Source: Archaeoglobaceae archaeon (GTDB lineage: Archaea > Halobacteriota > Archaeoglobi > Archaeoglobales > Archaeoglobaceae). Taken from it: a stretch of DNA of 64,000 nucleotides. Below the pieces are notes generated by a model. The model did no database searches. It was not told where the DNA came from and saw nothing but the letters and a program-made list of their open reading frames with translations. A program made the position numbers and the translations under genes. Position 1 is the first letter of the stretch; the number at the start of each line of letters is the position of its first letter. Shown here in pieces: positions 56,579 through 59,344 of this stretch. The stretch covers positions 62,001 to 126,000 of the forward strand of contig JANXDX010000004.1 of NCBI GenBank assembly GCA_025058735.1, read 5' to 3'.

Positions 56579-57535
56579 ATGAAAGTTGTAGGATTTGTTG
56601 GATATCCATTAAGCGGAAAGACTACTGCAAGTCAAGTAGCTGTAGAGATTGGGATTCCTACAGTCAACATGGGAGATGTTGTAAGGGAAGAAGTTGCAAA
56701 AAGGAATTTGCCATTGACTGATGAAAATCTAGGAAATGTAGCTTCTGATCTTAGAAAAAAGTTTGGAATGGATATAATTGCTAGACTTTGTATACCAAAG
56801 ATTAGAAAAATTCTAGATGAGAAAGGAGTGGTTGTTGTTGATGGAATAAGAGGTATAGATGAGGTTGAAAGATTTAAAAAAACCTTTGGAGATGATTTTA
56901 TTTTAATAGCAATAGAGGCTCCTTTGGAAATTAGATTTGAAAGAGCAAAGAGGAGGATGAGGAGTGATGACGTTTTAACGATCGAAGAACTGAAAAAGAG
57001 AGATGAAAGAGAAGAAAGTTTTGGACTTAAAAAAGCCATGGAGGTTGCAAACTTTACTGTTGAGAACAGTGGAGACATCGAGATTTTTAAAGAAAAAATC
57101 AAAGAACTTTTGAAAAGTGTAGCGAGTGGTGTAGAGGTGATCGTTGAAACCTACGTTCATCCAACTGAAGATGAGGAGAAAGTGAAGAAAGCTGTAAGGA
57201 ACCTTTTTCCAGATTCCGAAATAGAGATAAAGGAAGGTAAATTGATTGCTAAAGCTAGAGACCTTAGAAAGTTTAGGGAACTCCTAAGAATTCAAAAGAT
57301 ATTGGATACTGCGAGATCTGAAATTACAAGGGGAAGAATAGGAAGTGAAGTAATAATATATTTAAATAAACAAGCTGCAACTGTCTCTAAAGTTAATTTT
57401 ACAGATGAGGATGCAATTCTTTCACCACTGAAAGTTACTTTTAGACTTATGAACGTCCCATTCAGTAGATTTTTAGATTACATAGCTCCAGAAACAAGGA
57501 ATGGGAAAATTATCAAAGAAATCGATAAACTTTGA
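56579..57535 (+). CDS. UPF0200/UPF0201 fusion: dephospho-CoA-kinase-like P-loop kinase plus DUF54
   Basis: A 318-residue protein. Residues 1-185 are a nucleoside-kinase-like P-loop (GYPLSGKT, 8-15; VVVDGIRGIDEV) of UPF0200, and residues 187-318 are UPF0201/DUF54, an alpha/beta domain of exosome-linked context. In many archaea these are separate genes; fusion is known in Archaeoglobus. Substrate unknown; dephospho-CoA or nucleotide kinase activity is possible. Convergent overlap of 23 bases with the QueF fusion. Confidence 0.9.
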   Translation: MKVVGFVGYPLSGKTTASQVAVEIGIPTVNMGDVVREEVAKRNLPLTDENLGNVASDLRKKFGMDIIARLCIPKIRKILDEKGVVVVDGIRGIDEVERFKKTFGDDFILIAIEAPLEIRFERAKRRMRSDDVLTIEELKKRDEREESFGLKKAMEVANFTVENSGDIEIFKEKIKELLKSVASGVEVIVETYVHPTEDEEKVKKAVRNLFPDSEIEIKEGKLIAKARDLRKFRELLRIQKILDTARSEITRGRIGSEVIIYLNKQAATVSKVNFTDEDAILSPLKVTFRLMNVPFSRFLDYIAPETRNGKIIKEIDKL

Positions 57536-58226
57536 CCCTTGCAGAAATGCCACTTCTTCTTTCAAATAGACCTTCAACTTCGAGTTTTTTTGGTTTAATA
57601 GCTTCCCAAACGTCTTCCAAGATCTTTTTCACTACAGCTTCGTGGTGCATAGTCTTCTCTTTAAAATCTTTGAAGTACTCATCTAGAGATTCGTATTCAA
57701 GCAAAAAATCTTTTGGAATATATTTAATTTTTATTTTAGCTCTATCTTCCATTCCGGTGACTGGGCAGATACATCTGAAATCTTCATACTCAAACTCAGT
57801 TTCATGTTCTCCATAGATGTTCGGAATAACTTTCAATCTTTTTCTTTCAAAAGATCTTAATACGTTTAAAAGCTCTTCAAAGCTTGAAGCTTTTTCAACT
57901 GAAACTATGAATGGCCATGGAGATTGAACTTTCGATGGACAGTAAGCTACAACAACTTTTCCCATCATCGATGCATAGATAGCTTCAAACATTGCTCCAA
58001 AACTTGGGTAGGTAGCTAATAGAACAACTAGGTCTGCTTTAGAAACTAGCTGCAGATCGTTCTTAAATATCTCTTTGCAGATCTCATCTTTGTCTCTAAA
58101 ATCTTCAATCTTTGTGTAATCTAAGAAAAATTGGTTTAAAACTTCAAATCCCTCATTTGAAAGTTTTTTCTGAATTTCTAAGATCTCGTCTTTAGCTTTA
58201 CTACTACCAGCTATGAATACTTTCAC
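57513..58226 (-). CDS. Nucleoside deoxyribosyltransferase-like / QueF-like fusion
   Basis: A 237-residue two-domain protein. Residues 1-123 resemble nucleoside 2-deoxyribosyltransferases (MKVFIAGSSKAKDEIL, ADLVVLLATYPSFGAMFEAIYASMMGK). Residues 125-237 are a QueF-type tunnel fold with Cys154 in CPVTGMED, Asp161 and His195-Glu196. The NADPH motif of bacterial QueF (ESKSLK) is EYESLD here, so reduction of preQ0 is doubtful. Archaeal QueF-like proteins add ammonia to preQ0 in tRNA to make archaeosine; that is the best guess. The role of the fused N-terminal domain is unknown. Confidence 0.8.
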   Translation of the reverse strand: MKVFIAGSSKAKDEILEIQKKLSNEGFEVLNQFFLDYTKIEDFRDKDEICKEIFKNDLQLVSKADLVVLLATYPSFGAMFEAIYASMMGKVVVAYCPSKVQSPWPFIVSVEKASSFEELLNVLRSFERKRLKVIPNIYGEHETEFEYEDFRCICPVTGMEDRAKIKIKYIPKDFLLEYESLDEYFKDFKEKTMHHEAVVKKILEDVWEAIKPKKLEVEGLFERRSGISARVKVYRFL

Positions 58227-58348: not shown

Positions 58349-59344
58349 ATGGAATTCAGAAGAGAAGTAGAAATTGCAAAAATATACGTCAATGGAAAGA
58401 TAGAAGAGAATCCTGTAGAGATTAGATTCGATCCGTTAACTCTACAAACATCAAGAATAATAAAAAAAAGCATCAACCTAAATTTTGGTGGATTTGAAGA
58501 AGAAATCGAGTCAACTAGAAGTTGGTGTCCATTTTGCAGCGAAAGAATAGAGAATTTAGCTGCAAGAGAACCAATTATCATGAAATCCGAACTCTGGAAG
58601 AGAGGAGAGGCTATAATGTTTGCAAATCTAATGCCATATTCAAAGTTCTCTTTAGTTTTAAGGGTAACAGAAAAACACTATTTGAAGTTGTCTGAATTCA
58701 AAACTGAACATTTCTTTGATGCTTTTAAATTGATCCAAGAGTTCTTCTCAAGATTACCAGAAGGAAAAATCTACGCTACAATTGGTATGAACTATTTAAA
58801 ATCTGCTGGTAGCAGTATTATGCATCCTCACATTCAAGTTCTATTTTCAGAAAATTCAACAGATTACTTTGCAAGACTTGAGTGGGGCGCTTTCAGTTTT
58901 GCAGAATTGAACAAAAAAGATTTCTGGATGGCCTTAGTTGAAGAGGAAAAGAAAAACAAAGAAAGATTTATTGGAACAACTGAAAAGACCTATTGGCTAG
59001 CAACTTTTGCACCTAAAGGTTTTTACCATTTCATGGGGATTCCTGAAGAGAGAAACTTTGTCGATATGAGCGATGAACAGCTTATTGGTTTATCGAAAGG
59101 AATTACGAAAATTCTAAAATTCTACGAAAGGAAAGGGTTTAACTCTTTCAACTTTTCAATCTTTTGTGCAGATAGGATAGGGAGTAGTTTTAGAACTAAC
59201 TTACAGATCTTAGCAAGATCACCTTTTGGAAAATACTACTGGTGCGACGTATTTTTCACAAAAATGTTGCAAGACGAAAGTGTAACGTTCTTTATGCCTG
59301 AGGATTATGCGAAAGAGCTGAGGGAAATTTGGGAAAAATTATGA
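58349..59344 (+). CDS. Galactose-1-phosphate uridylyltransferase-like protein
   Basis: A 331-residue GalT/HIT-superfamily protein. Zinc pair in CPFCSERI, the active histidine in SSIMHPHIQVLF (HPHxQ), and FANLMPYSKFS. Related to nucleotidylyltransferases of sugar-1-phosphates or ADP-sulfurylase. TATA-like elements lie just upstream in A+T-rich DNA. Its stop overlaps the AmrS start as ATGA. Substrate is not certain. Confidence 0.85.
   Translation: MEFRREVEIAKIYVNGKIEENPVEIRFDPLTLQTSRIIKKSINLNFGGFEEEIESTRSWCPFCSERIENLAAREPIIMKSELWKRGEAIMFANLMPYSKFSLVLRVTEKHYLKLSEFKTEHFFDAFKLIQEFFSRLPEGKIYATIGMNYLKSAGSSIMHPHIQVLFSENSTDYFARLEWGAFSFAELNKKDFWMALVEEEKKNKERFIGTTEKTYWLATFAPKGFYHFMGIPEERNFVDMSDEQLIGLSKGITKILKFYERKGFNSFNFSIFCADRIGSSFRTNLQILARSPFGKYYWCDVFFTKMLQDESVTFFMPEDYAKELREIWEKL

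Follow-up and report, generated by a model that had tools for sequence, protein, structure and literature searches.

A gene joining nucleotide N-glycosidase-like and QueF-like domains in Archaeoglobi, possibly for 7-deazaguanine salvage

We found that a gene of Archaeoglobi joins a domain of the nucleoside deoxyribosyltransferase (NDT)/DNPH1 fold to a domain of the QueF tunnelling fold, and we tentatively propose that its product is a two-domain 7-deazaguanine nucleotide salvage enzyme, whose activity, substrate and direction we infer. The gene lies in a window of 64,000 nucleotides (the whole stretch of DNA that was analysed) from an Archaeoglobaceae archaeon, and its features are listed in Table 1. 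The specific form of the proposal is more doubtful: the single polypeptide might cut archaeosine-5'-monophosphate and turn the freed base into preQ0 by reversed QueF-L chemistry, and would then be the first archaeosine-recycling enzyme.

Archaeosine is present in virtually all archaeal tRNA, and routes for queuine salvage from degraded tRNA are known in bacteria and eukaryotes. In the open-access literature searched, we found neither an archaeosine salvage route nor a description of an architecture combining QueF with a deoxyribosyltransferase; the preliminary description of this DNA likewise knew of no described activity for the fusion. Both domain families are already known, and it is their fusion that is so far undescribed in the literature searched. 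The fusion offers a concrete, testable candidate from thermophiles for archaeosine salvage. If the proposal is true, the tRNA-base recycling loop would be closed in archaea, and a QueF-type domain would have lost its reductant site a second, distinct way.

Table 1. Features of the fusion gene, in positions of the window.
Feature	Position	Strand	Basis
Complete NDT/DNPH1-like – QueF-like fusion gene	57513..58226	-	GTG start, 237 aa; single open frame
N-terminal NDT/DNPH1-fold domain, aa 1-125	57852..58226	-	PF05014, AlphaFold, Foldseek
Asp57, matching D80 (general acid) in human DNPH1	58056..58058	-	Invariant in 13 copies, 24 residues ahead of Glu81; HMMER alignment to Rcl
Ser75, matching S98 (5'-phosphate ligand) in DNPH1	58002..58004	-	Invariant in 13 copies, 6 residues ahead of Glu81
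Glu81, matching E104 (nucleophile) in DNPH1	57984..57986	-	Invariant in 13 copies
C-terminal QueF-like tunnelling-fold domain, aa 131-237 (~131-236)	57516..57836	-	PF14489, TIGR03139, Foldseek to 5jyx and 4f8b
Cys154, thioimide-forming Cys of QueF and QueF-L	57765..57767	-	Alignment; invariant in 13 copies
Asp161, general acid/base of QueF and QueF-L	57744..57746	-	Alignment; invariant in 13 copies
EYESLDEY (aa 177-184) at the QueF NADPH-motif site (ESKSLKLY in B. subtilis)	57675..57698	-	Aligned to 4f8b
His195-Glu196, 7-deazaguanine pocket residues of QueF and QueF-L	57639..57644	-	Alignment; invariant in 13 copies

Domain architecture

The fusion is a genuine gene architecture. The uninterrupted frame noted in the preliminary description, which gave no strand, was confirmed on the minus strand, and the same join is unbroken in 13 other genomes; the copy of genome G028 alone is frameshifted. 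A frameshift or an assembly artefact joining two genes, which had been named as a possible refutation, is therefore ruled out.

In Pfam and Foldseek, each half matched the family or fold assigned to it. In Pfam, residues 161–233 match PF14489 QueF (E 4e-19), while residues 10–100 match PF05014 Nuc_deoxyrib_tr (E 1e-6) with 29.2 bits, barely above the cut-off of 28.8. The AlphaFold model of the whole protein contains two domains (pLDDT 89, pTM 0.80), and in Foldseek its QueF half matches the QueF-L structure 5jyx (TM 0.92 of the target, 1.2 A) and also B. subtilis QueF (4f8b). When residues 1–125 were modelled alone (pLDDT 92), the model matched the NDTs 7o62, 8pqs and 6evs, as well as DNPH1. 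The deoxyribosyltransferase-type N-terminus and the QueF tunnel fold, both first read from the letters of the DNA, are thus borne out; a failure of the N-terminal half to match its fold, the other refutation that had been named, was seen neither in Pfam nor in Foldseek.

N-terminal domain

Residue conservation was scored in an alignment of 13 fusion copies. The spacing of Asp57, Ser75 and Glu81 is identical to that of D80, S98 and E104 in human DNPH1, which act as general acid, 5'-phosphate ligand and nucleophile, respectively (PMC10603095); MilB employs Asp78, Ser97 and Glu103 (PMC4081090). HMMER also aligns the three residues to those of Rcl, with an E-value of 0.004 that is weak on its own. 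The position of DNPH1 Tyr24 corresponds to residue 4 of the fusion, where the 13 copies have F, V, I, L or M and never Tyr. Within this superfamily, a preference for ribonucleosides accompanies Phe instead of Tyr at this position, as described for AvNRT, an N-ribosyltransferase of Archaeoglobus veneficus (PMC7308715). The domain has the NDT fold with catalytic Glu and Asp, and the Asp that serves the nucleoside 5'-OH (Asp79 in AvNRT) is missing, with Ser75 in its place. Ser102 is invariant as well and by eye may match S128' of DNPH1, the second phosphate Ser, contributed by the partner subunit; the MAFFT alignment was not decisive on this match.

From the Asp, Ser and Glu at DNPH1 spacing and the lack of Tyr at residue 4, we predict, somewhat in favour rather than firmly, that the domain is a ribonucleoside-5'-monophosphate N-glycosidase and not a nucleoside deoxyribosyltransferase. 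It shares the fold and the Asp, Ser and Glu spacing with DNPH1/Rcl (2'-deoxynucleoside 5'-phosphate N-hydrolase) and MilB (CMP N-glycosidase). However, identity to them is about 20%, Tyr24 is absent (a MilB-like ribose preference would be expected), the base-side loop differs and a QueF domain is attached. AvNRT belongs to the same superfamily, comes from a related archaeon and also has no Tyr at the 2'-OH position, but it is a stand-alone, nucleoside-type enzyme (Asp79 for O5') that moves ribose between bases. The preliminary description had allowed that the domain could deliver or release a base or bind a preQ0-like purine; among these options release is best supported, by the presence of the catalytic Asp, the catalytic Glu and the phosphate-binding Ser seen in DNPH1 and MilB. 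The window copy is without two residues of a GSIGYGG loop that the other copies keep.

Stand-alone close relatives of the domain (about 35% identity) are encoded at L081:1489-1899 and L082:1507-1905 in another family of the phylum. No QueF domain was found in them, His replaces the catalytic Asp57, and their neighbours are uninformative.

QueF-like domain

In a gapless alignment, the QueF-L counterparts of Cys154, Asp161 and His195-Glu196 are C21, D28 and H62-E63, so the early reading that these residues are kept holds, and so does that of a degraded NADPH motif. The corresponding stretch ESKSLKLY of B. subtilis QueF is its NADPH-binding motif. In the 13 copies this site reads EYESL(D/E/K)xY, with EYESL and the final Tyr invariant, the first Lys always Glu and the second Lys variable. 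Because the motif is replaced by an invariant EYESL, nitrile reduction by this domain is unlikely.

The QueF half scores 71.8 bits against bacterial QueF and 29.6 bits against the archaeosine synthase QueF-L, and by this higher score to QueF it seems to derive from QueF and to have lost its NADPH binding independently of QueF-L. The protein also passes the curated NCBIfam cut-off for TIGR03139 preQ(1) synthase (92.1 vs 86.9); since it does so without the NADPH motif, this call is probably a misannotation. The archaeosine synthase QueF-L of Pyrobaculum calidifontis (5jyx, 5k0p) resembles the QueF half in the tunnelling fold, the thioimide Cys, the Asp, the His-Glu pair and the absence of an NADPH motif. 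Unlike the fusion, it consists of one domain (about 105 aa) and lacks an NDT-like half; it has 17–18% identity to the fusion and carries AIEEFKKM at the NADPH-motif site. The unimodular nitrile reductase QueF of B. subtilis (4f8b) is nearest by sequence, with about 31% identity in the structural alignment and its pocket residues kept in the fusion, whereas the fusion has the NADPH motif replaced and an N-glycosidase-like domain attached.

Distribution and conservation

Among the phylum's 394 genomes, 14 carry the full-length fusion, the window genome being one of them. All are Archaeoglobi, falling in the window's family and in Candidatus Mnemosynellaceae; G028 holds the one further, frameshifted copy. 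The copies of the 13 other genomes have 44–55% identity to that of the window. The dN/dS ratio is about 0.07 for close pairs and 0.055–0.083 for the separate halves, so both domains are under purifying selection. In the tree, the G028 copy, from the window's family, clusters with Mnemosynella copies (supports 89/81 and 92/89), a grouping that hints at horizontal transfer. Divergence is greatest for the window copy, which has the longest branch among the fusions and whose place the tree does not fix; the fusion was found in no other of the ten genomes of the window's genus. A scan of genome contigs gave no match with a single protein as query and 12 loci, all in Archaeoglobi, with an alignment as query; the latter used strict peptide patterns, which could miss divergent copies elsewhere. 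A viral origin was rejected, as nothing was found in the viral-contig scan and phage records match the QueF half only.

Archaeosine and preQ0 pathway context

ArcTGT, ArcS and RaSEA are all present in 11 of the 11 holders examined, namely those among the first 60 genomes. The ArcS match of the window genome is weak (17.5 bits), but its frame has the expected length and adjoins ArcTGT. So a role of the fusion as archaeosine synthase is not needed, and a replacement of ArcS or RaSEA by the fusion is rejected for these holders. Holders of QueF-L are mostly without ArcS; in contrast, mapping the fusion against ArcS and ArcTGT, a check proposed at the outset, gave co-occurrence in the eleven holders instead of the inverse distribution with ArcS that is typical of QueF-L. 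The conversion of preQ0 in tRNA to archaeosine, suggested early on by analogy with QueF-like proteins, is disfavoured by these genes and by the closer likeness of the QueF half to bacterial QueF.

Its nine genus mates have QueC and QueD; the window genome lacks both and has two queuosine-precursor transporters. It is alone in its genus in lacking these genes and in having the fusion, and with a second-type transporter present (L121:1287-1997) it has likely switched from preQ0 synthesis to salvage. Among class genomes at least 95% complete, all nine without QueC are also without QueD, and the second-type transporter, a type assigned by the start position of the match in the profile, is present in 9/9 of them vs 13/30 with QueC (p=0.002; the genomes are not independent). 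The loss of QueC and QueD together with this transporter makes dependence on imported preQ0 likely in part of the class. The fusion itself shows no significant association with QueC loss (6/17 genomes without QueC vs 9/42 with it, p=0.33), and compensation for QueC loss is therefore unsupported.

A link to bacterial-type Tgt was also ruled out, since none was found in six of the eleven holders (G015, G017, G020, G027, G030 and G035). In the window genome, a bacterial-type tRNA-guanine transglycosylase (TIGR00430, 526 bits) lies beside a queuosine-precursor transporter (TIGR00697), and a weak Qng1-like protein (PF10343, 22.9 bits) falls below the cut-off of 25. This set (L045:6335-8214 on contig C4 and L119:1233-2099 on contig C8), common to several Archaeoglobaceae genera, suggests salvage of queuine or preQ1 into tRNA position 34 in an archaeon.

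Gene neighbourhood

In the window, no 7-deazaguanine gene was recognised next to the fusion. The fusion gene is convergent with a gene at 56579-57535 that encodes a P-loop kinase domain plus PF01877 RNA_binding, whose 3' end overlaps it by 23 bases on the opposite strand (57513-57535). Divergent from it is a GalT-like gene at 58349-59344, encoding 331 aa with no Pfam match and a weak 21 bits to galactose-1-phosphate uridylyltransferase models.

An HD-domain gene adjoins the fusion in G015, G027, G030, G035, G140, G157 and G276, and this adjacency is seen in three genera. In G017, a triple NDT–QueF–HD fusion (L035:6819-8072) has 406 aa counted from the Met of the NDT domain, with HD at the end of the fusion. 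Because 52 of the 59 genomes of the class have HD homologues and the search found none in five holders (G020, G028, G038, G039 and G294), the link is suggestive only, and the case for the HD hydrolase as a dedicated partner is weakened. A half-length MFS_1 protein is encoded near the fusion in G017, G020, G027, G030, G140, G157 and G276; a Bartonella MFS protein carries preQ0 and preQ1 (PMC11130926).

Discussion

In the proposed reaction, the substrate of the N-terminal domain would be a 7-deazaguanine ribonucleoside 5'-monophosphate, for which the likeliest candidate is archaeosine-5'-monophosphate derived from decaying tRNA. Glu81 would attack C1' as the nucleophile, Asp57 would serve as the acid and Ser75 would hold the phosphate; the base would be freed and ribose 5-phosphate left. 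The QueF-like domain would hold the freed base on Cys154 as a thioimide and, without an NADPH site, may run archaeosine-synthase chemistry in reverse, from formamidine to nitrile and ammonia. The product would be preQ0, the substrate of ArcTGT. A 7-deazaguanine compound is the probable substrate; for the reverse amidine chemistry in the QueF half, the chance seems somewhat below even. Free archaeosine base readily deaminates to preQ0, canonical ArcTGT is unable to use archaeosine base, and both free preQ0 and preQ0-tRNA form a thioimide with QueF-L (PMC5485725). A base freed from a ribonucleotide and held on a QueF-type Cys without NADPH fits the route from archaeosine-5'-monophosphate through archaeosine base to preQ0.

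The invariant Asp57, Ser75 and Glu81, the lack of Tyr at residue 4, the kept Cys154, Asp161, His195 and Glu196 with the lost NADPH motif, the HD and MFS neighbours and the purifying selection support salvage. So do the archaeosine synthase genes already present in the eleven holders and the signs that part of the class relies on preQ0 salvage. Against it, the fusion does not track the loss of preQ0 synthesis, the sequence likeness of the N-terminal domain to DNPH1 is weak, nearly every genome of the class has the HD gene, and the window copy has diverged most, with its GSIGYGG loop two residues short. An enzyme for the deamination step may also be dispensable, because free archaeosine base deaminates unaided. 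The queuosine nucleosidases QueK and Qng1 resemble the fusion by proposed role alone, freeing a 7-deazaguanine base from tRNA decay products, but they belong to unrelated protein families and act on a different base. An NDT domain is tied to this type of pathway in a further, separate case, where another QueC-family cluster is linked to a PfkB-PF05014 protein of purine salvage (PMC13329287).

Among the alternatives to salvage, the fusion may be a nucleotide-pool sanitiser or regulator, whose N-terminal domain hydrolyses stray modified nucleotides, much as DNPH1 hydrolyses hydroxymethyl-dUMP, and whose QueF half only selects 7-deazaguanine bases, with neither preQ0 conversion nor salvage. The DNPH1-type residues, the patchy distribution and the lack of a significant tie to preQ0-synthesis loss agree with this; we consider it rather unlikely, as the QueF half keeps its nucleophilic Cys and its general acid Asp in all 13 copies, which goes beyond the needs of simple binding.

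The kept pocket residues with a lost NADPH motif, like QueF-L, and the fold match to 5jyx at 1.2 A would also suit an additional, QueF-L-type archaeosine synthase, its QueF domain adding ammonia to preQ0 in tRNA and its NDT-like domain just binding nucleotide or tRNA. Such a role is unlikely, given the complete ArcTGT, ArcS and RaSEA set of the eleven holders, the closer sequence of the QueF half to QueF, and a full catalytic set in the N-terminal domain that mere binding makes superfluous.

An enzyme that swaps nucleoside bases and whose QueF half presents preQ0 or a like base would accord with the NDT fold and with the nucleoside ribosyltransferase AvNRT known from an Archaeoglobus (PMC7308715), yet it is improbable, as Ser replaces the 5'-hydroxyl Asp of nucleoside-type enzymes and thereby points to nucleotides and hydrolysis. 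Least probable is a true QueF reducing preQ0 to preQ1 with NADPH, perhaps for the bacterial-type Tgt of some holders: the TIGR03139 cut-off is passed and the window genome has such a Tgt, but the NADPH motif is replaced with its first Lys always Glu, six holders show no bacterial-type Tgt, and most genomes with this Tgt have no fusion.

QueF genes with normal NADPH motifs were observed in genome G256, where two divergent ones (L086:1420-1848 and 2556-2963) lie about 0.7 kb apart. One of them overlaps a gene that is TGT/DpdA-like by eye, and the locus is possibly a DNA 7-deazaguanine modification cluster.
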